53,409 bases of DNA from Acrocarpospora corrugata (lineage in GTDB: Bacteria; Actinomycetota; Actinomycetes; Streptosporangiales; Streptosporangiaceae): positions 173,987-227,395 of the forward strand of contig NZ_BLAD01000037.1 in the NCBI RefSeq assembly GCF_009687845.1, written 5' to 3'. Of this stretch, positions 7,676 to 20,146 are shown one piece after another. Within the stretch, counting starts at the first letter, position 1; every line of letters begins with the position of its first letter. The translations under genes and the position numbers were made by a program. Below the pieces are notes generated by a model, which worked only from the letters and a program-made list of their open reading frames with translations, had not been told where the DNA came from and did no database searches.

Positions 7676-7805
7676 CGAGAGCGTCCCGGCAGCCGGCCAG
7701 AACCCACGCGAATCGTCTTCGGCCGTGGCAGCTCGCTGGGGTTCCTATTGTGGTGTGATTGTCGCACCGTTGCTTTGGGACGGCCTGTCAGCAGCTGGAG
7801 GCGGG

Positions 7806-8866
7806 TTGAAGCGCAGGCGCGAATTGCTGACCGAACTCGCCATATCTCTGGCCAGTGGCGTCATTCTGGCGGTGGGCGCGAGTTTGCTGACGGTGGCGGG
7901 ATTACCGGGGGTCGCGGACGCGATTCCCACCTGGGTGCTGGTGGCGGTGGTGGCTGTCGTGGCGGCGCTCGTGGCCTTTCTGGTCGCGCGCCGGCTCGGT
8001 GGAGGCGGCGCCCAGGCGTTTGTCATGATCTCGGCATTCAGGACACGCTGGCTCGCGGATCTGCTCGCCGATCTGTCCCGGGTTCTCGATCGGCACGGAA
8101 TCGAGCTGGTCGTCAAACTTCCCGAGTACGACCACACCGGCCGGAGCCAGCTTGACTGCCTGGCCTCACTACGCCGTAAGCGACGGTCCTTTGTCGGCGG
8201 TTTCCTGGTCACCGACCATCTCGACCACGTCCAGGACGAGGTCACGGCGGCGTGCCATGCCCTCAGAAAGCCCGTGCTGTTTCTCGACACGTGCCCGTTC
8301 AACGCGGCGGACCTACCGCCCCAGACGGCGTACGTGAATTGTGATGCCGACGAGATAGGCGAGATGGCCGCGCGGTGGCTGGCCCACGAGATGACGGAAC
8401 GCGATATCGCCGATCCCGTGGTACTCGTTGTCGCGGGGGACGCGCAGCCCGGTCGGCAGAACCGTTTCAAAGAGCGATTTCACGAGCTGATGCCGTCCGC
8501 GAAAGTGGACATCAGTCCACATGGGCAGTTCGTGCGTGAGTGGGCCCGGGACATTGTGATGACTCATCTGTCCCGGCGGGGCAGCGCATCGACGCCATCT
8601 TCTGCACCAATGACGAGATGGCGCTCGGCGCGGTCGACGCGGTACAGAAACATTCAGGACCCAGCGATATCGTCATCATCGGAGTCGACGGAATCCCCGA
8701 AGCCCTCGCGACCATCGACACGGGAACGACGCACTTCCGGGCGACCATCGTGCAGAGCACCCGGCGCGCCGCCGAAGTCGCCGTCGACGCCCTGATGCGG
8801 ATGCGGGCCGGAGAGCGCGTCCCGGCCGAACTCACCTTGCCCGCCATCTGGCACCCCATGCGATGA
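7806..8866 (+). pseudogene. membrane-anchored periplasmic-binding-protein-like sugar sensor, frameshifted
   Basis: The best start is a TTG (LKRRRELL) 4 bases after GGAGG; an ATG at 7725 is in frame but has no clear ribosome site. Two membrane helices (about residues 8-32 and 40-60) lead into a type I periplasmic-binding domain of the LacI/ribose-binding class (GIELVVKLPEYDH, then FVGGFLVTDHLD, then VVLVVAGDAQPGRQNR). At GGGG (8578-8581) the frame is lost. Adding one G joins it to RIDAIFCTNDEMALGAVDAV, IIGVDGIPEAL and VAVDALMRMRAGERVP, the rest of the same fold, ending 353 residues from the TTG. The anchor replaces the usual cleavable signal or lipobox, and no permease is nearby, so a sensory role rather than transport is possible. 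Tail-to-tail with the lacI-type gene, 3 bases apart. Confidence 0.65.
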
Positions 8867-8869
8867 GCC

Positions 8870-9919
8870 TCACGGCACCCACTGCCGGTCGGCTGGGTTC
8901 TCGCGCAGGTTGCGCGGGGGAGTCGCGGTGGAGTCGCGGATGACCAGGCGGCAGGGGAGGCTGTGGATGCCGGGGGTGGCTCTGCCCTCGATGGCGGCGA
9001 ACAGGTGCTGGGCGGCGGTGTGGCCCAGGTGTTCGAGGTCGGGGTCGATCGTGGTGAGGGTGGGGCGGGTCTGTTCGGAGAGGACCTCCCAGTTGTCGTA
9101 GCCGACGACCGCGATGTCGTCGGGCACGCGCCGGCCGCGTTCCCTGGCCGCTTCGATGAATCCGGCGGCGGCCTGGTCGCTGCCGCAGAACACCGCGTCG
9201 ATTTTCGGTTCGGCCATCAGCAGCATTTCCGCGGCGAGGCGTCCCCAGCGCTGGGACCAGGAGCCGAATAACGTTTCCCCGACCTGCGGCAGCCCCGCCT
9301 CGGCGAGCGCCTGCCGTACCCCCTCGGCCCGGTCGGTGGCGGCTTTGTAGTCGCTGGGGCCGGTGACATGGGCGATGCGGGAGCGGCCGGTGGCGATCAG
9401 GTGGCTGACGGCGAGATGGGCGCCGCCCATGTCGTCGGGGACGAACGACACGTCCTCGGGGTCCTCGGAGGGGCCGTAGGCGTACACCACGGGGACGGGC
9501 AGGTCCTTGGTGATGGACGGGCGGGGGTTGGTGCTCTCGCCGACCACGATGAGGCCGTCGACCCGGCGGGAGAGCAGGGTGCGGACGTAGTGCTGCTCGC
9601 GGATCGCGTCGCCGCGGGCGTCGCAGAGCAGCACTGCCATCTCGCCTGTTCCGAAAGCGTTTTCCGCACCGAGCAGGACGGGGATGCCGAACCGGCCGAC
9701 CATGTCACTGGTGAGCAGGCCGACGGTGCGGGTTTGCCCGGAAAGCAGGTCCTGGGCCAACGCGTTGGGCTGGAAACTCAGCTGCGCGGCGGCGTTGAGG
9801 ACCAGCTGTCTGGTCGCCGCCCGGACATCGACACGGCCGTTGAGCGCCTTGGACGCGGTGGCGATGGAGACGCCCGCCAGGGCGGCCACGTCAGTAATGG
9901 TCGCACGCCTGGTCGTCAC
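8870..9919 (-). CDS. LacI-family transcriptional repressor
   Basis: I choose the GTG giving VTTRRATITDVAALAGVS, because LacI helix-turn-helix domains start this way and AAAGGG lies 8-9 bases upstream; an in-frame upstream start would add 18 residues. DNA-binding part: TITDVAALAGVSIATASKAL with the hinge helix PNALAQDLLSGQTRTVGLL. The effector domain follows, with VDGLIVVGES, DDMGGAHLAVSHLIATGRSR, IDAVFCGSDQAAAGFIEAAR and VPDDIAVVGYDN, ending in the typical RLVIRDST. LacI proteins are released by a sugar or oligosaccharide. It is divergent from the glycoside hydrolase operon across about 480 bases holding a promoter and palindrome, so it very probably controls that operon and itself. Confidence 0.93.
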   Translation of the reverse strand: MTTRRATITDVAALAGVSIATASKALNGRVDVRAATRQLVLNAAAQLSFQPNALAQDLLSGQTRTVGLLTSDMVGRFGIPVLLGAENAFGTGEMAVLLCDARGDAIREQHYVRTLLSRRVDGLIVVGESTNPRPSITKDLPVPVVYAYGPSEDPEDVSFVPDDMGGAHLAVSHLIATGRSRIAHVTGPSDYKAATDRAEGVRQALAEAGLPQVGETLFGSWSQRWGRLAAEMLLMAEPKIDAVFCGSDQAAAGFIEAARERGRRVPDDIAVVGYDNWEVLSEQTRPTLTTIDPDLEHLGHTAAQHLFAAIEGRATPGIHSLPCRLVIRDSTATPPRNLRENPADRQWVP

Positions 9920-9977
9920 ACCGAAAACCCTTTCTCCATGCTCTACCTGGTCGGACCTCATCATACGCAACAATCCG

Positions 9978-10007
9978 TTGACAAGTACCGCAGGTTTCTT
10001 CTACGTT
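9978..10007 (+). promoter_or_regulatory. putative sigma-70-type promoter of the glycoside hydrolase operon
   Basis: TTGACA (9978-9983) is a perfect -35. TACGTT (10002-10007), 18 bases on, fits the TAnnnT pattern of actinomycete housekeeping -10 elements. It points toward the hydrolase genes and lies just outside the lacI-type gene. Confidence 0.6.
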
Positions 10008-10017
10008 ACGAAAACCT
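9992..10017. promoter_or_regulatory. 26-bp dyad overlapping the -10, likely LacI-type operator
   Basis: AGGTTT at one end and AAACCT at the other are perfect inverted arms around a central ACGT. The central CG dinucleotide and 26-bp span resemble LacI-family operators. It covers the -10 and presumed start point of the promoter above, where binding would block transcription. That the adjacent LacI protein binds it is inference. Confidence 0.55.
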
Positions 10018-10065
10018 TTTAGGTGATTTCGGACGTTGTGCCGGGGGGTATCGGAAGGAGAGGCC

Positions 10066-10179
10066 ATGCAGCCACTTGTGCTGGTCAGTGCTGCCCTGGG
10101 AACGATCGGCGTCGCGCCGGTCGCAGGGCCCGACGGCAAAGAGCCCCCAGCTCAACGCCGAGTGGACAACCGTCTCTGA
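10066..10179 (+). CDS. small ORF (37 aa) at the head of the hydrolase operon
   Basis: ATG with a strong ribosome site (GGAAGGAGAGG, 2-3 bases upstream at its end). The product starts MQPLVLVSAALGTIGVAPVA, a hydrophobic stretch followed by a polar tail PDGKEPPAQRRVDNRL. It has the shape of a signal peptide followed by nothing. It may be a leader peptide, a small membrane or secreted peptide, or the remains of a lost secreted-protein gene. The 221 bases between its stop and the first hydrolase contain no convincing gene or hairpin; this leader is unexplained. Confidence 0.35.
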   Translation: MQPLVLVSAALGTIGVAPVAGPDGKEPPAQRRVDNRL

Positions 10180-10400
10180 ACCCCCCAGTCACGTTGCCGG
10201 ACGACGAGTCCCAGACGTTCCCGCAGCGCATGGTCATGGAGCGTGCCACGGCCCGTCCGACCGCAGGCCGTCCACGATGCCGACCAGCCGATTCGCCATC
10301 CCTCACCCGCCAGCCGCACGCGTTCCCGGCACCGACCCGTCACGGTCCGTGTGCGCCCGAGACCCGGCTTCACCCCCCATCTGGTACCAGGAGGAAGTTA

Positions 10401-13400
10401 ATGATTGCCAGACGCTTAGGCAGGGCGCCCACGTGGGCAGCTCTGACCGCGCTTACCGTGGCAGGCCTGGTCAGCCTGCCACCCGCCGCCCACGCCGACG
10501 GACCCGTTCTGCCCGGCAACGAGGGTGACGTGGGGGTTTACACCAACGGGCAGAGCCACGTCATGGACATCGGCGACCCGGTTTACGCCAACGTCGGCGA
10601 TGTCGTCAACCAGCTCAAGCCCGGCGTGCCGTACACCGCGTCGAACCTGCACCAGTCGATTTTCGACAAGGACTTGGCCGCGGGCGGTACGGACTACTAC
10701 CTCGACCGCGTGCTGGGCGTTCGCGGCGCGCTCGGGTCGACCGTGCTGATGACCCGTGGCCGCTCCGTGTACATGCGCGGCGCGAGCAACAACAACTTCA
10801 CCGTCATGGGCTTCGCCGGCAGCACCTTCGTCGGCGGTCCCAACAACCTCGGCAACCTGTACACCGTCACGGTGCCCGGGCAGACGGTGGCCGAGGTGAA
10901 CGCGAACCGGTTCAACGCGCCGAGCCACGCCAAGAGCCAGTACACGATCGGCACCACCGGCGTCACCGCCGATCTGACGAAGTTCATCACTTATGACAAC
11001 GTCGCGGTCACCGCGATCAACTTCAACAACCCCGGTGAGACGGCGGCGACCTTCACGGTCCGGGCCGCCTCGCCGCTGGCCACCCAGGCCGGAGCCACCG
11101 CGGCCGAGCTGACCGGCACCCGCGTCATCACCAGCGGCTCCAACAACGGGCTCGTCGACACCCCGTGGAACACGGTCAAGATCGACGTCACCGGTGCCGG
11201 CTTCACCCGCACCGGCGCCAACCTGGACCGCGAGGTCACTGTCCCCGCCGGTGGCTCGGTCTCGGTCTCCGTGGTCGGCGCGGTGTCCTCGGCCACGCTG
11301 CCGAAGACGGTGGAGAGCTACCACGACTACGCCGCGCTGGCGCCGGCCGTGGCGGTTCGCACCGGTATCACCGCGTTCAACCGCCAGTGGGCGCAGGACG
11401 TGCCGTACATCAACGTCCCCGACCCGGCGCTTGAGAAGGCCATCGTCTACCGCTGGTGGGGCGAGCGTTACAACACCCTGGACGCCAACGCGACCGGTCA
11501 CGTCTACCAGTACCCCACGACGATCGAGGGAGTGAACCTCTACCAGAACGCCGTGGCGCTGACCCAGCCGATGCACCTGCAGGACACCAAGTGGCTGCGT
11601 ACGCCTTACCTGCCGTACGGCCAGATCCTGAACATCGGCGAACTGTCCGGCTCCTCGGCCTTCCTCGACAGCCCGGGGCACACGAGCTGGAACAACCACT
11701 ACTCGCAGTACATCGGCACGGCAGGTCTTGAGGCCTACAACGTGCACGGCGGCGGCAAGGAGGTCGCCGAGAAGTTCGCTCACTTCTTCGAGGGCGACGG
11801 TGTCGGCCAGCTCCAGCACTACGACGGCAACAACGACAAGCTGATCGCTTACGACACCAACTACATGCCGGGCAACGACGCGGACGCCATCTCCTTCGGC
11901 TTCCCGAAGACCGGCGCCGGCGCGCCCGGCGCGCGGACGATCGAGCGTCCCGAGTCGGCGTACGTGTGGGGCGCCTTCGACGCCGCCAGGCAGCTGTACC
12001 AGATGTCCGGCGCGAGCCAGGCCAAGGTCGACCAGATGGCGACCAGCGCCAACGGCATCCGGGACGCGATCCTGGACAAGCTGTGGAGCCCCGACATGCG
12101 GATGTTCCTCGCCGCCACGTCGCACGGCGCCACCAGTGGGGCCAGCTCGAACGGAAAGGCCAACCCGCTGCCCGCGGCGGCTCGCGGCCTGGTCCCGGCG
12201 AAGGAGTCGAACCTCTACGACGTCTACGCCGAGAACCTCATCCCGTTCGACCAGTACCAGAAGTACGTCGACGGTTACCGCTTCCTGACCTACGGCGACA
12301 ACTTCCCGATCTTCCCGTTCTACACCGCCAACCAGTACGACCGGACGGCGTACGGGGTCGGCGGCTCGAACAACTTCTCCAACATCAACTTCACGGTGCA
12401 GTACCGCAGCGTGCGGGCGGCCCTGCGCCACTACGACCCGGAGCAGAAGTACATCACCCCGGCCTACGCCAAGCGCCTGCTTGACTGGATGGCCTGGAGC
12501 ATCTACCCGAACGCGGACATGCGGGTCCCGAACCAGTCGGAGTACTACTCCAACTGGAACGCGACCACCAAGACCTACAACCGCAACAACCCGAACCACG
12601 TGATGCTCGGCAACATGAACTACATCTTCGTCGAGGACATGGCCGGCATCCAGCCGCGCTCCGACGACAAGATCGAGCTCTGGCCGATCAAGTTCGGTTA
12701 CGACCACTTCATGGTCAACAACCTGCGGTACCACGGCCAGGACGTCACCATCGTCTGGGACCCGGACGGCACCAAGTACGGTCTGGGCGCGGGCTACAGC
12801 CTGTTCCTGAACGGCGAGCGCAAGGCCAGCGCCGACCGGCTCGGCAAGCTGACCTACGACCCGAAGACCAACCAGGTCCAGGCCGAGGCCGGCGTGAACG
12901 TCACCTTCACCGCCGCCACCGGGAGCGACTTCCCGACCGCGGTCAACACCCCGATCGAGGACGACCGCGTCGTCGGCTACCTGAAGACGGCCGGCATCGA
13001 CCTCACCGAGGACACCGCGAACCTGGCGAAGGGCGCCACCCTCGCCTCGTCCTACACCCAGCAGGGCACCCGCTCGACCCCGTGGCGGCAGTTCCACACG
13101 CCCGGCTACAGCACCACCTCGATGAACTACACGCCCGGCGCCATCAAGGAGACCGAGCAGGCCGTGACGCTGGCCGCCGTGAACGACGGCGTCACCGCCA
13201 ACGAGCCCTACTGGGGCAACTACGGCACGACCGACAAGAACGGCTACGTCGAGATCAATCTGGGCTCGGCCAAGTCGTTCGACAACGTGAAGGCGTTCTT
13301 CGTCAGCGACCGCCAGGCCGGCGGTTACCACGAGCCCGCCCGCTGGTGGGTGCAGGTGCCCAACGGCAGCGGCGGCTGGAAGGAAGTGCCGGGCCAGTTC

Positions 13401-15131
13401 AAGAACCCGTCGGTTCCTTCGGCGAAGTTCAACGAGGCGCTCTTCGACTCCGTCACCGCGGACAAGGTGCGCATCGTCTTCACCAACAACCCGACCTACT
13501 ACACCGCGATCTCCGAGATCCAGGTGTTCGACTCGGGCCGTGACGTGCCGGACGTCTCCAACCAGGCGCCCACCGTCACCGCCACCCGCGACGGCTCGGC
13601 GGACGGCAACCTGTCCACCAGGCTGGTCGGCAACGCGTCCGACGACGGCATCCCGTACGACGACGAGCTCACCTTCGGCTGGGAGACCGTCTCCGCGCCG
13701 CAGGGCGCGGGTGTCATCTTCACCGACTCCAAGGCGCTGTCGACCAGGGTGACCGGCACTGTCGCCGGTGACTACGTGTTCCGGTTCTTCGCCGACGACG
13801 GCGAGAAGCGGGCGACGGCGACCGTCTCGGCGACCCTCGCCAAGAAGGACGTCGTGGCGGAGTTCGGCTCCACCGCGACCGTCACCACCAGCGGCACCGC
13901 GTCGTGGGAGAACCACGCGCGGGTCAACGAGGCCACCACCCCGGCCAGCTCGAACCCGGGCTCCGGAACCGGCTGGGGCAACTGGGGCCAGCCGCGCAAC
14001 GGCACCAGCCCCGCGACCGAGGCGTGGATCCAGTACCAGTGGACCTCGCCGGTGCGGCTCTCCTCGACCGACATCTACTGGTATGACGACAACGGCGGCA
14101 CCCGCCGCCCGACGGCCACGACCTATGCCATCGAGACCTCCACGGATGGGACCACCTGGACACCGGTGACCCTGAACGGATCGACGTACGCCAACGGTCT
14201 GGCCACCAACGCCTACAACCGCTTCAACTTCGAGCCGGTGACGACCAACCGGATGCGGATCCGCATCTGGGGCCTGATGACCGGTGGCGCCGGCACCGGC
14301 GTGCTGCGCTGGCGCGCCAACGGCGAGACCGTCGACACGGTGCGCTCGCCGGTGCTCATCCGGACCGGCGTGGGCCAGGTGCCCACCCTGCCGGCCGCGC
14401 TCGACGCGGTGTACACCAGCGGTGCCCGCGGCACCGTCGGGTTCAAGTGGCAGACGATCACGCCGGACATGGTCGCGGAGACCAATGTCGACCCGTTCGT
14501 GGTCTACGGCACCAACGACGCCTACGGCCTGATCGCCGAAGCCCGCGTCTACGTGCGGCCTGAGATGTCGCAGGACGGCATCTCGATTCAGGGCGCCGAG
14601 TCGTTCCAGCAGCACGTCGAGATCGGCGAGCTGCCCTACCTGCCCAACAAGGTGGAGGTCTCCTACAACGACGGTTCCAGGGACAACCAGGCCATCGGTG
14701 TGAACTGGCGGTTCAACCCGGAGATCGTCAACACCGACGGCGCCTACACCGTCATCGGCGACCTCATCCTGCCCGAGTACGTCAGTGAGGCCGGCACCAT
14801 CCGGACCACGCTGACGCTCACCGTCGGCGAGGGTGGCCCGATCTGGGTGACCAACGTGGCGCCGCGCACCCAGTGCACCGGCACCAACGCCTACGTCACC
14901 CTCAACGTCCGCAACGACGACGACGTGCCGCTCACCATCGAGCTGATCACGCCGTACGGGTCGCGGACCGTGGCCAACGTGGCGCCCGGGAAGTTCGCCT
15001 ACCAGGCGTTCAACACCCGCGCCAAGTCGATCCCGGCCGGCACGGCGACGGTGAAGGTCACCGGAACCGTTGACGGCACGCCGGTCACCGTACCGGTGGA
15101 AGCGCCGTACGGCGCGCTCAACTGCGGCTAA
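10401..15131 (+). CDS. very large secreted multidomain glycoside hydrolase ((alpha/alpha)6-barrel-like) with two discoidin domains
   Basis: ATG preceded by GGAGGAAG; 1576 residues. Signal peptide 1-33 (ends AHA). An N-terminal beta-rich domain (about 34-335) precedes an aromatic-rich helical region (about 340-840) with YRWWGERYN, ESAYVWGAFDAARQLYQMSG, NLYDVYAENLIPFDQYQKYV and NFPIFPFYTANQYDR, resembling (alpha/alpha)6-barrel hydrolases such as GH63 or MGH1-like enzymes. I cannot fix the CAZy family. Then: a discoidin/CBM32-like domain (about 874-1045), an Ig/PKD-like domain (1052-1150), a second discoidin (1152-1310), a Big_4-type Ig domain (1314-1387), a linker domain and a C-terminal module (about 1485-1576) starting RTQCTGTNAYV and ending ALNCG. 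That last module recurs in the next gene. First large gene of a LacI-controlled operon; substrate probably an arabinose- or xylose-type polysaccharide, by association with the GH43 neighbour. Confidence 0.85.
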   Translation: MIARRLGRAPTWAALTALTVAGLVSLPPAAHADGPVLPGNEGDVGVYTNGQSHVMDIGDPVYANVGDVVNQLKPGVPYTASNLHQSIFDKDLAAGGTDYYLDRVLGVRGALGSTVLMTRGRSVYMRGASNNNFTVMGFAGSTFVGGPNNLGNLYTVTVPGQTVAEVNANRFNAPSHAKSQYTIGTTGVTADLTKFITYDNVAVTAINFNNPGETAATFTVRAASPLATQAGATAAELTGTRVITSGSNNGLVDTPWNTVKIDVTGAGFTRTGANLDREVTVPAGGSVSVSVVGAVSSATLPKTVESYHDYAALAPAVAVRTGITAFNRQWAQDVPYINVPDPALEKAIVYRWWGERYNTLDANATGHVYQYPTTIEGVNLYQNAVALTQPMHLQDTKWLRTPYLPYGQILNIGELSGSSAFLDSPGHTSWNNHYSQYIGTAGLEAYNVHGGGKEVAEKFAHFFEGDGVGQLQHYDGNNDKLIAYDTNYMPGNDADAISFGFPKTGAGAPGARTIERPESAYVWGAFDAARQLYQMSGASQAKVDQMATSANGIRDAILDKLWSPDMRMFLAATSHGATSGASSNGKANPLPAAARGLVPAKESNLYDVYAENLIPFDQYQKYVDGYRFLTYGDNFPIFPFYTANQYDRTAYGVGGSNNFSNINFTVQYRSVRAALRHYDPEQKYITPAYAKRLLDWMAWSIYPNADMRVPNQSEYYSNWNATTKTYNRNNPNHVMLGNMNYIFVEDMAGIQPRSDDKIELWPIKFGYDHFMVNNLRYHGQDVTIVWDPDGTKYGLGAGYSLFLNGERKASADRLGKLTYDPKTNQVQAEAGVNVTFTAATGSDFPTAVNTPIEDDRVVGYLKTAGIDLTEDTANLAKGATLASSYTQQGTRSTPWRQFHTPGYSTTSMNYTPGAIKETEQAVTLAAVNDGVTANEPYWGNYGTTDKNGYVEINLGSAKSFDNVKAFFVSDRQAGGYHEPARWWVQVPNGSGGWKEVPGQFKNPSVPSAKFNEALFDSVTADKVRIVFTNNPTYYTAISEIQVFDSGRDVPDVSNQAPTVTATRDGSADGNLSTRLVGNASDDGIPYDDELTFGWETVSAPQGAGVIFTDSKALSTRVTGTVAGDYVFRFFADDGEKRATATVSATLAKKDVVAEFGSTATVTTSGTASWENHARVNEATTPASSNPGSGTGWGNWGQPRNGTSPATEAWIQYQWTSPVRLSSTDIYWYDDNGGTRRPTATTYAIETSTDGTTWTPVTLNGSTYANGLATNAYNRFNFEPVTTNRMRIRIWGLMTGGAGTGVLRWRANGETVDTVRSPVLIRTGVGQVPTLPAALDAVYTSGARGTVGFKWQTITPDMVAETNVDPFVVYGTNDAYGLIAEARVYVRPEMSQDGISIQGAESFQQHVEIGELPYLPNKVEVSYNDGSRDNQAIGVNWRFNPEIVNTDGAYTVIGDLILPEYVSEAGTIRTTLTLTVGEGGPIWVTNVAPRTQCTGTNAYVTLNVRNDDDVPLTIELITPYGSRTVANVAPGKFAYQAFNTRAKSIPAGTATVKVTGTVDGTPVTVPVEAPYGALNCG

Positions 15132-15139
15132 CACCCCCC

Positions 15140-15170
15140 TGGTGGCGGCGCCTCCGCGGCGCCGCCACCA
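15140..15170 (+). terminator. intercistronic GC hairpin between the two hydrolase genes
   Basis: TGGTGGCGGCGC and GCGCCGCCACCA form a perfect 12-bp stem with a 7-base loop, starting 9 bases after the first hydrolase stop. The next gene starts 30 bases further on in the same direction, with no obvious new promoter. It may be a partial terminator or an mRNA-stabilising end that lowers expression of the downstream genes relative to the first. Confidence 0.6.
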
Positions 15171-15200
15171 ACCACCGCTGAGAGTAAGGAAAGCACCACC

Positions 15201-18200
15201 TTGAAGATCGCCGTGAGGCGCACCGCCGCCTCATCACCCCCCCGCCCCCGGTTACGCAGGACCGTCCCGGCGGCGGTCGCCCTCCTCCTGGCCGGCTCCC
15301 TCCTCGGAGTCCCCACCGCGGCCTACGCCGCCGACTCCATCACCTTCACCAACACCCGCAACCCGATCCTCGGTGACGGCGCCTACTACTCGGCGGACCC
15401 GGCGCCGGTCGTCATCCCGGCCGGAGCCCCCGGCAACACGAGCGGGAGCGACGAGCTCTACATCTACACCGGCCGGGACCAGGCCGGGCCGTCCACCAAC
15501 GACTTCACCATGAACGAGTGGGGCGCGTTCCGCACCACGAACGTGGAAGCCGGCGAGTGGACCCACTATCCGTCGCTGATGCGCCCGGAGACCGTCTTCT
15601 CCTGGGCGACGGCGGGCCGCGCGTACGCGGGCCAGATGATCCAGGGTGTGGACGGGCGTTACTACTGGTACGTCCCGGTCAGCGAGCGGGTGAGCACGGC
15701 GGCCGACAAGTTCGCGATCGGGCTGGCCGTCGCGACGACGCCGACCGGTCCGTGGACCGACTACGTGGGCGGGCCGCTGATCTCCCAGCGGGTGCCCTCG
15801 GCGAACACCATCCAGAACATCGACCCGACGATCCTGATCGACGGCGAGGCCCCCAACCAGCGGGTGTACGTCTGGTGGGGCACCTTCGGGAATCTGCGGA
15901 TGCTGGAATACCAGCAGGACATGAAGACCCCCATCGGCACGCAGCGCACCGTCACGGGCCTGACCGGGTTCTTCGAGGCGCCCTGGATCTTCAAGCGGAA
16001 CGGCACGTACTACCTGGCGTACGCCGGCAACAACGCCGGCCCGACCTCGCAGTGCACCCCGGCGAACTACCACGCGTGCATCGCGTACGCGACGGCCACC
16101 TCGCCCACGGGCCCGTGGACCTACCGCGGCACCGTGCTCCGGCCGGTCTCCTCGACCACCAGCCACCCGGGAATCCTGGAGTTCAACGGCAAGTGGTACA
16201 TCGCCTACCACACGGCCGACGCGGTCGGCGGCGGTCACTTCCGCCGTTCGGTGGCGATCGACCGGGTGGAGTGGGACGACACCCAGACCCCGCCGCGGAT
16301 GAAGCAGGTCACCACGACACCGGTCAAGGGACGTGACCTCACGCCCCGGCCGAACGTCGCCCAGGAGGCGAAGGTCGCCGTCTCCAACGAGCCCGTGCCC
16401 ACCCAGTACTGGGTGAAGGCGCTCAACGACGAGCTCGTCCGGTCCAACCCGCTCCCGCCGGACATGTGGGGCACCTGGACCGGCAGCAACCCGCCGCAGC
16501 AGTGGGTGCAGTACACCTGGGACCAGCCGATGCGGATCACCGGTTCGCAGATCGACTTCTGGAACGACCAGGCGCAGGGCACCGGCGTGGGCGTCGCCGC
16601 GCCCGCTCGCTGGCGTATCCAGTACTGGAACCTCGCCACCGCGCAGTGGGCCGACGTGCCGAACCCGAGCGGCTACCCGACCAGCACGTCGGGCCCGCAG
16701 AGCACCACGTTCGACGCGGTCACCACCACGCAGGTCCGCGCGACCTTCGACGCCTCCACCAACGGCAGCACCTACTCGGCGGTCGCGGTCGAGGAGTGGA
16801 AGATCCTCGCCGCGCAGCCGGAATCCGTCACCGCGCCGGCCATCACGGTCGAAGTGGGCGAGCGGGAACTGCCCGGCACCGTCCCCGTCGTCTTCGGCGG
16901 CGAGACGCTGCGGATCCCTGTCTTCTGGGACCCGCTGACCGCGGAGCAGGTCGCGCAACCCGGCACGGTGACCATCCAGGGCACCCTGCTCGGCTACGCC
17001 GCCGGCCGCGTCTCCGCGCAGGTCACGGTCCTCTCGCTGGACGACACCGAAGGCGACGAGACCGCGCCGACCCTGACGCTCACCCCGAGCGGCAGCGCGG
17101 GCAGCGCCGGCTGGTACCGCTCCGCAGTGCGGGTCCGCGTCGCCGGCACGGACGACCGCGGCGGCCGGCTCACCATCGAGTCGCGGGTCGACAGCGGCCA
17201 GCCGGTCATCACCAGGGACACCCGGCAGGCCGACGCCGACGTCTCCGGCGACGGCCAGCACACGGTCACGGCCACCGCGACCGACCGCGCGGGCAACGTC
17301 TCGGCGCCCGCGAACCTCGCCGTACGCATCGACGCCACGGCGCCGGTCAGCGTGGGCACCCTGAACACTGCCAACCGCACGGTCAAAGTGATGGCCGCCG
17401 ACGCCACGTCCGGTGTCGCCGGCATCGAGTACGCCATCGGCACCGGACCGTGGACCGCCTCCACCGGCGGCGTCATCGCGGCACCCGACGCCAATCGGCA
17501 CACCGTGTCGTTCCGGGCGACCGACGTGGCGGGGAACCTGGAGACGGCCAAGTCGGTCGTCATCCCGGCGGACCTGTCCGGGCCGCTGACCGGCAACATC
17601 GCGCCGATCGCGACCCCGACCGCCTCCTCCACGGCGGGCTGGAACAGCGTCACCGCCCTCAACGACAACGCCGACCCGGCCAACCCGAGCCAGGCCCAGA
17701 TCTGGGGCACCTGGTCCGGCAACCGCCCGGCGACCCAGTGGGTCCAGTACGAGTGGTCCCGCCCCGTACGGATCATCTCCTCGGAGCTGAAGTTCTGGCG
17801 GGACGCCAACCAGGGCACCGGCGACGGCGTCGCCCAGCCCGACGGATGGGTGCTCCAGTACTGGGACGAGGCCACCTCGGCCTGGGCCGACGTGCCCGGC
17901 GCGTCCGCGTACGGCACGAGCACGACCGCGTTCAACTCGGTCACCTTTACCCCGATCACGACGCCCCGGGTGCGGGCCACGGTCCGGGCCAACGGCAACG
18001 GCACCACCTTCTCCGCGGTCGCGATCACGGAGTGGCGGGTCTTCGCCGACGAGCCTGGCACCGAGCCGGTCAAGATCCCGGTCACGGTCACGGTGACGCC
18101 GCGCTGCATCGCCGGCAAGGCGTACCTGGGCGTGCAGGCGCACAACGACCACGAGTCGGCGGCGGCCATCACCGTGGAGACCGCGTACGGCGAGCGGGCC

Positions 18201-18362
18201 TTCCCGGGTGTCGCGCCGGGCGCCAACGCCTACCAGTCGTTCGCCACCCGGGCGGCCTCGGTCGCCGCGGGCTCGGTGACGGTCCGCGCCACCGGGACTG
18301 TGGACGGCGAGGAGATCACCACGGTCTACCCCGTCAGCCACCCCGCCCTCAGCTGCACCTGA
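15201..18362 (+). CDS. secreted GH43-family glycosidase with duplicated discoidin domains
   Basis: TTG start after AGTAAGGAAAG; no better start nearby; 1053 residues. Signal peptide 1-43 (ends AYA). GH43 five-bladed propeller (about 45-380): YYSADPAPV carries the catalytic base Asp (about 66), NIDPTILIDGE the pKa-modulating Asp, and FFEAPWIFKRNGTYYLAY the acid Glu. GH43 enzymes are arabinofuranosidases, xylosidases or galactosidases. Two copies of a discoidin-like domain follow (about 384-534 and 800-948), clearly duplicated: WGTWTGSNPPQQWVQYTW and WGTWSGNRPATQWVQYEW. Between them are a Big_4 Ig domain and Ig-like/OmpL47-like repeats with TATDRAGN and RATDVAGN. The C-terminal module (about 967-1053) starts TPRCIAGKAYLGV, ends ALSCT and matches the end of the previous protein. 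Confidence 0.9.
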   Translation: MKIAVRRTAASSPPRPRLRRTVPAAVALLLAGSLLGVPTAAYAADSITFTNTRNPILGDGAYYSADPAPVVIPAGAPGNTSGSDELYIYTGRDQAGPSTNDFTMNEWGAFRTTNVEAGEWTHYPSLMRPETVFSWATAGRAYAGQMIQGVDGRYYWYVPVSERVSTAADKFAIGLAVATTPTGPWTDYVGGPLISQRVPSANTIQNIDPTILIDGEAPNQRVYVWWGTFGNLRMLEYQQDMKTPIGTQRTVTGLTGFFEAPWIFKRNGTYYLAYAGNNAGPTSQCTPANYHACIAYATATSPTGPWTYRGTVLRPVSSTTSHPGILEFNGKWYIAYHTADAVGGGHFRRSVAIDRVEWDDTQTPPRMKQVTTTPVKGRDLTPRPNVAQEAKVAVSNEPVPTQYWVKALNDELVRSNPLPPDMWGTWTGSNPPQQWVQYTWDQPMRITGSQIDFWNDQAQGTGVGVAAPARWRIQYWNLATAQWADVPNPSGYPTSTSGPQSTTFDAVTTTQVRATFDASTNGSTYSAVAVEEWKILAAQPESVTAPAITVEVGERELPGTVPVVFGGETLRIPVFWDPLTAEQVAQPGTVTIQGTLLGYAAGRVSAQVTVLSLDDTEGDETAPTLTLTPSGSAGSAGWYRSAVRVRVAGTDDRGGRLTIESRVDSGQPVITRDTRQADADVSGDGQHTVTATATDRAGNVSAPANLAVRIDATAPVSVGTLNTANRTVKVMAADATSGVAGIEYAIGTGPWTASTGGVIAAPDANRHTVSFRATDVAGNLETAKSVVIPADLSGPLTGNIAPIATPTASSTAGWNSVTALNDNADPANPSQAQIWGTWSGNRPATQWVQYEWSRPVRIISSELKFWRDANQGTGDGVAQPDGWVLQYWDEATSAWADVPGASAYGTSTTAFNSVTFTPITTPRVRATVRANGNGTTFSAVAITEWRVFADEPGTEPVKIPVTVTVTPRCIAGKAYLGVQAHNDHESAAAITVETAYGERAFPGVAPGANAYQSFATRAASVAAGSVTVRATGTVDGEEITTVYPVSHPALSCT

Positions 18363-18412
18363 CCCCCCATCCCTATCCTCATCCCCAGTAATCACGCAAA
18401 ATGGAGCATTAC

Positions 18413-19033
18413 ATGAAGAACCAGCACAAGTGGCTGCTCGCGGCGGCTGTCGCCATGACCGCGTCGGTGGCTCTGCAGGCGCCGGCGATGGCCGACCCCG
18501 GCGACAGCACCAGCGTCGCGGTGACGGTGGAGATCGAGCCGATCCGGGAGCCGGGCGTGCTCGCCATGTCCATCGCCGCCAACTCGGTCGCCCTGACCGA
18601 GGACGAGGCCACCCTGGAGACCCGCGAGTTCAACGGCACCCTGCCGACGGTGACCGTCACCGACACCCGCACGCTGGAGGAGGTGCCCGGCGGTGCGGCG
18701 TGGGCCGTTCTCGGCAACGCGACCGACTTCGCCGGCGACAGCGGCCAGGCGCCCATCAGCGCCGGCCACCTCGGCTGGAAGCCGAACCTGATCGACGGTG
18801 GCGAGACCGGCCTGGTCGCCGAAGGCGAGGAGGTCGTGACCGTCCTCGACGCGCCGACCCAGCCCGGCAACAACGTCGGCCTCGTCGACCAGGAGCTCCT
18901 GGTCTCGACCTTCGACTCCAGCGCCGTCACCGGTGGCGCGTACACCGTCAACGCCAACCTGTTCCTGCGCACGCCGCTGGACGTCGCCGCGGGTTCCTAC
19001 GCTTCGACGCTGACCCTGTCCCTGTTCGAATAA
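18413..19033 (+). CDS. small secreted WxL-like surface protein, partner of DUF916
   Basis: The start is the ATG giving MKNQHKWLL, with GGAG 6 bases upstream; an ATG 12 bases earlier sits on the ribosome site. Signal peptide about 1-31 (AMADPG). The mature part (about 175 residues) is beta-rich and acidic, without cysteines, with VAVTVEIEP near the start, a central TVTVTDTR, GHLGWKPNLI and a C-terminal ...YASTLTLSLFE. It has the layout of Firmicutes WxL proteins: an all-beta domain of similar size, next to a DUF916 gene, ending in an aromatic/aliphatic strand. A strict Trp-x-Leu pair is not visible, so the label rests on context and shape. It may be the wall-binding or scaffold subunit for the large hydrolases. 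Confidence 0.6.
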   Translation: MKNQHKWLLAAAVAMTASVALQAPAMADPGDSTSVAVTVEIEPIREPGVLAMSIAANSVALTEDEATLETREFNGTLPTVTVTDTRTLEEVPGGAAWAVLGNATDFAGDSGQAPISAGHLGWKPNLIDGGETGLVAEGEEVVTVLDAPTQPGNNVGLVDQELLVSTFDSSAVTGGAYTVNANLFLRTPLDVAAGSYASTLTLSLFE

Positions 19034-19041
19034 ACCCCCAC

Positions 19042-19071
19042 GGTGGGGGCCGCGGCTTCGCGGCCCCCACC
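19042..19071 (+). terminator. intercistronic GC hairpin before the DUF916 gene
   Basis: GGTGGGGGCCGCG and CGCGGCCCCCACC form a perfect 13-bp stem with a GCTT loop, 8 bases after the previous stop. As with the hairpin after the first hydrolase, the next gene continues in the same direction only about 40 bases on. Likely an mRNA end or attenuator setting stoichiometry rather than a full stop. Confidence 0.6.
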
Positions 19072-19111
19072 ACCCCCCTATGCCGGACCCGCTATGCCGG
19101 AGGATTTCGCC

Positions 19112-20146
19112 ATGATCCGAACATTGCCGCGGCTACTCGCCGTGCTGGCGGCGGTGCTTCTCGCCGTCCCGATCGCCCCCGCCATGGCGGAACCGGCAAA
19201 GCCCACACTCACCTGGTCGGTCCAGCCGGCCAGCCAGCAGGGCCCCGACGGCCGCCGGTGGATCGAGCTCACGCTCGACCCGGGCCAGAGCGTGACCGAG
19301 CACCTGGCCGTGCGCAACTTCAGCGACGGCGCCGCCGTCTTCGCCCTGAAGGCGGCCGACGGTTACCTCACCGACAAGGGCCGCTTCAACATGCTCCAAT
19401 CGGACCAGACGTCAGTGGACGGCGGCACCTGGGTCAAGGTTCAGAACGAGATCACCGTCGGGGCCAAGGAGACGAAGGTGGTGCCGTTCACCATCACCGT
19501 GCCCAAGGACGCCGCGCCGGGAGACCATCCGGCCGGCATCGCGGCTACCGTCACCAGCGCCCGCGGTACGGTCGCCGTCGAGAGCCGGGTGGGGTTCCGG
19601 GTCATGATGCGGGCCACCGGCACGATCAAGGCGGCGGTGGCCGTCAACGACCTCACCGCGTCGTACGAGCAGTCATGGAACCCCTTCTCCTCCGGCACGA
19701 TCCGGGTCAAGTACACCGCGAGGAACGACGGCAACATCGCGGTGACCGGCTCCGGCGGGGTGACGGTCAGCGGCCTGGCCGGCCTCGCGGGACGCGACGC
19801 CAAGACCAGCGTCGGGCAGATCTTCCCCGGCGACAGCCGCGTGGTCGAGACCCGCATCGCGGGCGTCTGGGCCCTGGGACCGCTCAGCACGAGCGTCACC
19901 GTGTCCCCCGCCGTCGAGGGCGGCGTCCCGGCCGGCACCGCGCTCGAACGCGCCGCGGCCGACGTGACGGTCTGGACTTTGCCCTGGCCGCAGTTGGCCC
20001 TCGCCGTGCTCCTCGGAGCCCTCCTCTTCTCCTTCCGGACCATCACCCGGCGACGCCGCCGGCGACTCGCGGACCTGCTCGCCCACGCCCGCGACGAAGG
20101 ACGGGCAGAGGCGACCATCGGCAGTCCCCGGACTTCCGGCGAATAG
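19112..20146 (+). CDS. DUF916 (WxL-interacting-protein-like) membrane-anchored protein
   Basis: ATG (MIRTLPRLL) with GGAGG 8 bases upstream; 344 residues. Signal peptide 1-26 (AMAEP). The DUF916 domain (about 30-160) has WSVQPASQQGPDGRRWIELT, LDPGQSVTEHLAVRNFSD and VPFTITVPKDAAPGDHPAGI, hallmark strands of the peptidoglycan-binding half of WxL-interacting proteins. A second Ig-like half (about 165-285) contains VKYTARNDGNIAVTGSGG. One C-terminal membrane helix (about 294-315, LPWPQLALAVLLGALLFSF) is followed by a basic RRRRRR tail inside the cell. In Firmicutes such proteins hold WxL proteins at the cell surface. Here it would anchor the small secreted protein, and perhaps the two hydrolases, on the wall side of the membrane. 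Confidence 0.85.
   Translation: MIRTLPRLLAVLAAVLLAVPIAPAMAEPAKPTLTWSVQPASQQGPDGRRWIELTLDPGQSVTEHLAVRNFSDGAAVFALKAADGYLTDKGRFNMLQSDQTSVDGGTWVKVQNEITVGAKETKVVPFTITVPKDAAPGDHPAGIAATVTSARGTVAVESRVGFRVMMRATGTIKAAVAVNDLTASYEQSWNPFSSGTIRVKYTARNDGNIAVTGSGGVTVSGLAGLAGRDAKTSVGQIFPGDSRVVETRIAGVWALGPLSTSVTVSPAVEGGVPAGTALERAAADVTVWTLPWPQLALAVLLGALLFSFRTITRRRRRRLADLLAHARDEGRAEATIGSPRTSGE

Follow-up and report, generated by a model that had tools for sequence, protein, structure and literature searches.

We analysed a window of 53,409 bp (the whole stretch of DNA studied; bases 173987-227395 of contig C37, NZ_BLAD01000037.1) from the 9.27 Mb genome of Acrocarpospora corrugata, in which two large secreted enzymes are encoded beside a small WxL-related protein and a DUF916 protein. 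An original prediction, made from the letters alone, had proposed a cell-surface complex of a LacI regulator, two giant hydrolases, a WxL-like protein and a DUF916 anchor, and all five open reading frames (ORFs) are present where it placed them. On the forward strand, cargo 1 (P0002, 10401..15131) encodes a secreted enzyme resembling glycoside hydrolase family 121 (GH121) beta-L-arabinobiosidases, with F5/8C, PKD-like and Big_4 domains; its frame is open from 10023, and the likely start is the ATG at 10401 rather than 10023. It is followed by cargo 2 (P0003, 15201..18362), a secreted GH43 enzyme with F5/8C, Big_4 and Big_13/OmpL47-type domains. Both end in a Cys...Cys domain of a putative docking type, at 14844..15128 in cargo 1 (profile match E 5.3e-42) and 18075..18359 in cargo 2 (E 6.6e-43). 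Next on the same strand come a small secreted protein consisting of a stand-alone WxL-related domain (18401..19033, start at 18401 or 18413) and a DUF916 (WxLIP_PGBD) protein (P0005, 19112..20146, start at 19094 or 19112) with a signal-like start, a C-terminal membrane helix and a basic end. None of these four secreted proteins contains an LPxTG motif.

Both hydrolases had been noted in the original prediction, but it missed the domain common to their C-termini. Both cargoes end in copies of a single ~95-residue domain, hereafter the tail (37% identical to each other), and this shared domain defines membership in the system. A profile of nine copies found four tails in the window genome: the two cargoes, an LVIVD-type protein on contig C75 that directly precedes a second small/DUF916 pair (LVIVD being assigned from a close relative in locus L136), and a GH127 enzyme with LamG on contig C45. 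The window tail has no Pfam or NCBIfam family at E <= 10, on which ground we rejected an already known domain. The other tails gave scattered weak family matches, the best among the matches listed having E-values of 0.0028 (Pfam) and 0.0015 (NCBIfam); two NCBIfam models, for a putative C-terminal anchoring domain and for a choice-of-anchor domain, hit a single tail apiece (E 0.011 and 0.085). Dockerin matched neither the window tail, with its 0 Pfam families at E <= 10, nor the other 67 tails, among the 25 of 45 matched Pfam families listed for them. A WxL2 domain was likewise rejected (0.3% in profile-profile comparison of tail and WxL), and the tail is unrelated to the small protein by the same test (0.6%). 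AlphaFold2 models the cargo 2 tail with seven strands and a pLDDT of 97.0; no solved structure matched the tail at E <= 0.001 in a fold search.

A contig scan with the small protein listed 153 relatives, the best 80 of which gave 79 loci; these named loci hold 139 tail ORFs. In 137 of the 139, at most 12 residues follow the tail, with 18 and 33 residues after it in the other two, and a signal-like start was seen in 127 by a crude rule. Both cysteines are present in 131 tails and neither in seven, with a single cysteine in just one, which has an aberrant end; an alignment of 68 tails gave 62 with both and six with neither. The two cysteines are almost always kept or lost together, which is the pattern expected of a disulfide.

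The tail is tightly linked to the small gene. Across 150 genomes sampled from the order, 37 full-length close small genes were listed, and for 36 of them a tail on the same strand ends 33-186 bp before the gene; in the exception (G136), the contig of the small gene lacks a tail, and the one tail listed for that genome sits at the very start of a different contig. The small gene directly follows a tail in 73/79 named loci, and the stretch contains a tail in 76/79, which in L096, L102 and L103 is found only downstream or on the other strand. Tail and close small gene occur together in 23 of the 150 genomes, with two having a tail only, none a close small gene only, and 125 neither (Fisher 4e-25). 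This count used all 115 tail matches and 56 of the 84 small-type matches; the remaining 28 (E >= 1.4e-12) were set aside as distant WxL-like matches, most of which fall in large ORFs. When these are included, 40/150 genomes have a match, 17 of the 40 without a tail. Of the 115 tails, 45 are at most 1 kb away from a small gene and a further 15 at most 5 kb, while the other 55 lie elsewhere. In a sample of the whole phylum, tails were found in 6/396 genomes and small-type matches in 9/396 (four of the nine close).

Several layouts depart from one cargo gene per platform gene. L168 has six tail genes near one small gene, two of which immediately precede it in the same orientation and four of which are divergent, while L167 has three tail genes before and one after a small/DUF916 pair, indicating that several cargo genes can share one platform. 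Conversely, L085, L090 and L091 have a small gene and DUF916 gene without a local tail; their genomes (one Oerskovia, two Cellulosimicrobium) carry 36, 65 and 50 tails, and each has a single close small gene plus a single distant WxL-like match. By eye, these three pairs lie in similar surroundings, downstream of small TadE-like genes. In L167, DUF916 is immediately followed by a gene (7692-8321) for one more secreted protein, which by eye is rich in Gly/Asn/Pro and has a membrane-like stretch at its C-terminus. L136 (6702-14876, G001) has two cargo and small units in tandem, of LVIVD-type and M14 peptidase cargo, with a single DUF916 gene in the stretch. The whole module is found on a plasmid of Cellulosimicrobium protaetiae (L169, NZ_CP052758.1), with a small gene annotated as a hypothetical protein, DUF916, and tails on GH43, LamG and GH53 proteins; plasmids of Clavibacter phaseoli have tails on GH43 proteins.

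The window small protein has no Pfam family at E <= 0.01. Compared by hhalign with seven actinobacterial proteins (six PF13731 matches at E <= 0.001, four of them over the cut-off, plus one neighbouring ORF), it gave 97.6% (E 2.8e-12), supporting the WxL-like character originally given to it; by its sequence, the protein is a predicted divergent WxL domain. In a scan of 48 members of the small-protein family, 15 families matched at E <= 10, and PF13731 was not one of them. All 48 keep D-x-R and W-x-V, and the family ends in Y-xxx-L-T-L-S-L, the distal WxL motif being described as Y-xxx-(L/I/V)-T-W-x-L (PMC5817068). Two Trp-x-Leu motifs are therefore not present: the first reads W-x-V, and L-S-L replaces the distal W-x-L. 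Intermediates exist, for example in L127-L131, which have D-x-R-G...G-W-x-L and end in L-T-L-T-L-S. PF13731 WxL proteins themselves occur at E <= 0.001 in 10/296 Actinomycetota genomes (four over the cut-off); G330 and G438 have two of them side by side.

AlphaFold2 models the small protein with middling confidence (pLDDT 80.7). A pilin was rejected, as Foldseek gave no PDB match at E <= 0.001 and the pilin rows were weak. No cohesin family matched at E <= 0.1, and a cohesin-like module appeared only at rank 20 of the fold search (E 0.08). Within a genome, small proteins of different loci share 92% identity on average vs 54% for the adjacent tails (38 pairs, five genomes), a pattern as for a common platform with differing clients. 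Locus-by-locus pairing of tail and small protein was rejected, the rank correlation of their identities being -0.01 within genomes, although it is 0.58 over all 2628 pairs.

The DUF916 protein of the window scores 34.2 bits against PF06030 (cut-off 27.3). Within its last 150 residues, hydropathy peaks at 1.74 (19-residue stretch) at residue 313, ahead of the basic end, so the membrane helix that the original prediction gave to this protein holds up. No DUF3324 follows DUF916 at E <= 0.1 in the sequence-family scan. A DUF916 gene lies directly downstream of the small gene in 54/79 loci (53 of the 77 with room for one), and all eight genomes tested among those without a local copy encode DUF916 over the cut-off elsewhere. 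On contig C75 of the window genome, the second pair has a DUF916 gene that breaks into two frames close to the membrane helix (L007:8574-9734 and 8696-8902), a frameshift in either the genome or the assembly.

The cargo varies widely. We scanned 43 tail proteins with Pfam (chosen representatives plus proteins from further genomes), of which 41 have a family at E <= 0.001, and upstream of the tail the cargo is unrelated. They include glycoside hydrolases (GH20, GH29, GH30, GH31, GH43, GH95, GH98, GH123 and GH127), phosphatase- or nuclease-type enzymes (5'-nucleotidase, endonuclease/exonuclease/phosphatase, purple acid phosphatase and PhoD), peptidases (M14, M6 and S8) and others (DUF6351 tannase-like, ThuA with a galactose-oxidase-like domain, glucose/sorbosone dehydrogenase, LVIVD and CBM35). 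GH121 carriers in other loci were recognised by similarity to cargo 1 (P0002). The genera of the 79 loci belong, as we place them, to Streptosporangiaceae, Micromonosporaceae, Microbacteriaceae and relatives of Cellulomonas; within the genus, A. macrocephala and A. phusangensis also carry the small gene.

This range changes what can be said of the original gene set. The combination of small protein, tail-bearing protein and DUF916 recurs far beyond the genus. LacI is not conserved with it, and this particular hydrolase pair need not be present: GH121 and GH43 both occur in the fetched stretch of only 32/79 loci (both upstream on the same strand in 31/79), with mostly other secreted enzymes in their place. 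Small and DUF916 genes regularly found without hydrolases had been named as evidence against the complex, and in part this is what we see, since the small gene regularly lacks GH121 and GH43 and mostly stands beside other secreted enzymes. The hydrolases are best read as interchangeable cargo.

Cargo 1 matches the NCBIfam HypBA2 model NF041578 with E 2.8e-164 (548.8 bits, far below the curated equivalog score of 3200 bits) and the GH121 structure 6m5a with E 6.5e-101. In the alignment to 6m5a, its Glu502, Asp619 and Glu840 align with HypBA2 Glu383, Asp515 and Glu713, which are conserved and required for activity (PMC7263609). The first giant hydrolase is thus, by sequence, a putative HypBA2-like GH121 beta-L-arabinobiosidase with its catalytic residues kept. 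GH121 has been described as mostly present in bifidobacteria and Xanthomonas (PMC7263609), and homologues of this type in actinomycetes such as Streptosporangium and Micromonospora have already been mentioned (PMC6085000). The assignment of the second hydrolase to GH43 was confirmed by PF04616 (99.7 bits, cut-off 32.2, E 2.5e-28), the closest PDB structure being 3qef (E 2.3e-40). Cargo 2 has D-P, D-P and E-A-P motifs at residues 64, 206 and 258, which we take to be the likely catalytic motifs of GH43. With the GH127 on contig C45, all three families of the bifidobacterial system for hydroxyproline-rich glycoproteins bear tails in the window genome, and the unlinked GH127 would complete the known enzyme trio for hydroxyproline-linked arabinans. 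Five more genomes of the order (G033, G052, G095, G101 and G103) similarly have two linked tails and one on another contig.

The intergenic regions of the cluster contain GC-rich hairpins on the forward strand, one separating the two cargo genes (15140..15170; RNA folding energy of the gap -32.6 kcal/mol) and one 3' of the small gene (19042..19071; -40.1 kcal/mol); the 38 bp gap between cargo 2 and the small gene has no notable fold (-1.4 kcal/mol). A perfect stem of at least 9 bp occurs within 90 bases 3' of the small gene in 46/79 loci vs 0/79 shuffled sequences, and by the same measure in 3/73 of the gaps that separate a tail gene from its small gene and behind 18/51 tail genes located further upstream. 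We read the hairpin after the small gene as allowing the cell to produce more small protein than DUF916; it could also be a terminator. The original prediction had counted separate transcription of the parts against a complex, and this hairpin leaves a separately transcribed DUF916 possible.

The LacI-family regulator (8870..9919, reverse strand, likely start GTG at 9919) is a divergent neighbour matching PF00356 and Peripla_BP_3 (PF13377). Its place in the surface complex did not survive comparison: a LacI-like match lies in the first 2.6 kb of only 2/9 related GH121 loci and in 0/4 other Acrocarpospora loci, and we rejected it from the conserved system on this rarity. It is probably a local neighbour exerting local control, outside the conserved system. 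A LacI operator common to the GH127 gene and the window promoter was also rejected, only 10- to 12-base words and no palindrome being shared; upstream of the window GH121 gene, no palindrome with at most one mismatched pair was found. By eye, the palindrome TGTTAACGCTAACA near the start of the GH127 gene (L134, 8370-11771, reverse strand) resembles a LacI-type operator. Among the flanking genes are those for a short-chain dehydrogenase, an ABC transporter ATPase and a PadR regulator.

We propose, with a probability of roughly 60%, that the locus exemplifies a modular surface-display system in which the tail is a C-terminal docking tag for a WxL/DUF916 platform. Secreted enzymes would carry the tag, a ~95-residue beta-sandwich usually closed by a disulfide, at their extreme C-terminus, where it would be recognised by the small WxL-related protein together with the membrane-anchored DUF916. 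The small protein would probably bind peptidoglycan and be made in excess, and the DUF916 protein would probably complete the WxL fold with one strand; in published AlphaFold2 models, a WxLIP strand fills a gap of WxL (PMC10599100). The tag would work both in cis, from cargo genes beside the platform, and in trans, from distant ones. In the window genome, the cargo would be GH121 and GH43, with the unlinked GH127 as a third carrier, and the surface would then hold a full set for stripping arabino-oligosaccharides from plant hydroxyproline-rich glycoproteins. We assign an anchoring role on the basis of work on WxL and DUF916 proteins in Firmicutes (PMC10599100, PMC9772566, PMC1534035), and because HypBA2 of Bifidobacterium longum ends in a FIVAR-membrane segment where the tail stands here (PMC7263609). 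A broader version, a general display machine of actinomycetes in which stand-alone WxL-type receptors form a layer with DUF916 anchors into which any tagged secreted protein is plugged, as a wall-bound counterpart of the cellulosome, has perhaps slightly less than an even chance. With 65 tails in one genome, dozens of tags per cell would be possible.

Several observations weigh against the docking proposal. The sequences show a shared domain, adjacent genes, co-occurrence, WxL homology, covarying cysteines and diverse cargo; contact between the partners, surface location, stoichiometry, the disulfide and the substrate are deduced from these. Similarity to the small protein was the basis for choosing the 79 loci, as the closest among 153, inflating both the linkage and the 92% identity, and the co-occurrence figures take no account of shared ancestry. 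The identities of small proteins and tails are uncorrelated within genomes (-0.01 over the 38 pairs). DUF916 is not directly beside 24 of the 77 small genes with room for it, both cysteines are missing from seven of 139 tails and from the GH127 tail of the window genome, and 55 of 115 tails lie more than 5 kb from any small gene, some of these at contig ends. Finally, G007 and G036 have tails only, and in G409 and G495 tails were detected but no small match, either genome-wide or near the tails read (7 candidates per genome scored), which counts against a strict need for the small protein. Such absences in whole-genome searches are soft, since first looks score only part of the candidates.

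Some of these observations would suit a tail that itself binds a wall polymer, with the WxL-related protein and DUF916 acting nearby, in wall organisation, and being only co-regulated. WxL domains bind peptidoglycan unaided (PMC5817068), 55/115 tails are remote from a small gene, and tails occur without a detected small gene in G409 and G495. However, the 33-186 bp between tail gene and small gene in 36/37 cases is tighter than a general wall binder needs, and a close small match without tails occurs in 0/150 genomes; we consider this explanation unlikely. Somewhat less probable again is that the small protein is a helper of secretion or folding that is later released, with DUF916 as its membrane partner and the enzymes free in the medium. 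The hairpins, which could yield more small protein than DUF916, agree with a helper, as does a weak resemblance in fold to pilin subunits, which depend on a donated strand (no fold match at E <= 0.001). DUF916 and WxL partners are nevertheless described as surface proteins in Firmicutes (PMC10599100), and highly similar small proteins serve unrelated cargo whose common part is the tail. It is very improbable that the tail is a carbohydrate-binding module (CBM) and its neighbours an ordinary plant-glycan operon: while glycoside hydrolases that contain additional binding modules are numerous among the scanned carriers, carriers also include PhoD, purple acid phosphatase, 5'-nucleotidase and M14, M6 and S8 peptidases, the tail sits C-terminal, and the only CBM match among those listed is a weak one, CBM_35 in 8/68 tails (best E 0.017).

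If docking by the tail is correct, it would explain how large multidomain actinomycete enzymes are retained at the surface without an LPxTG signal, and would give WxL and DUF916 proteins a job outside Firmicutes. The tail would become a marker for listing a strain's displayed enzymes from sequence alone, as well as a ready tag for the surface display of enzymes. It would also place GH121 in a probable surface system of actinomycetes other than bifidobacteria.

Cohesin-dockerin cellulosomes use one small C-terminal tag on many enzymes and one receptor platform. The system described here is similar in having a single small C-terminal tag on diverse enzymes and, as proposed, a single platform, but the parts differ: the window tail has no Pfam family at E <= 10 and the small protein no cohesin family at E <= 0.1. 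The HypBA1 (GH127), HypBA2 (GH121) and HypAA (GH43) enzymes of B. longum (PMC7263609) belong to the same three families, with the same GH121 catalytic residues kept. Unlike in B. longum, where HypBA2 is anchored by its FIVAR-membrane end (PMC7263609), GH121 here ends in the tail, GH127 is unlinked in the window genome, and GH43 is likened to HypAA by family only.

Over 91% of WxL sequences are from Firmicutes (PMC9772566). Among the papers listed by our searches, seen mostly as titles and abstract openings, we found no actinobacterial WxL/DUF916 system or tail, except for DUF916 as a neighbour of Ang-2, whose neighbourhoods contain a metallophosphatase and DUF916 (PMC12537917). Another DUF916 locus of the window genome, a second type of cluster (L008:6302-10706, contig C49), resembles these, with a protein beginning AHG, whose signal peptide seems to end before the His, then a metallophosphatase ending in a WxL-like domain, and then DUF916. 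Unlike the tail system, L008 is of a large-WxL type, its cargo ending in a WxL-like domain and not in a tail. L139 (1866-4743, G001) is, by its predicted domains, an actinobacterial large-WxL cluster, with a large protein whose C-terminal WxL-like domain (D-x-R-G...W-S-L; PF13731 E 0.087) lies next to DUF916.

The closest known relatives are the Csc/WxL clusters of Lactobacillales and Bacillales, in which CscA is the DUF916/WxLIP protein, CscB a small WxL, CscC a large WxL and CscD an LPxTG protein (PMC1534035, PMC9772566, PMC10599100). Unlike these, the cargo here ends in an unrelated domain instead of WxL2 and is also encoded in trans, DUF3324 has no match, the first motif is W-x-V with the second Trp of the WxL motif replaced, and the four secreted window proteins are without LPxTG. 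As DUF3324, two WxL motifs and a WxL2 domain on the large protein were looked for and are absent, the system is related to the Csc/WxL clusters rather than a member of them. What they have in common is a DUF916 protein with a membrane helix, a stand-alone small WxL-related protein and a large secreted protein with a shared C-terminal domain, all encoded in the same gene neighbourhood and present in several copies in some genomes.

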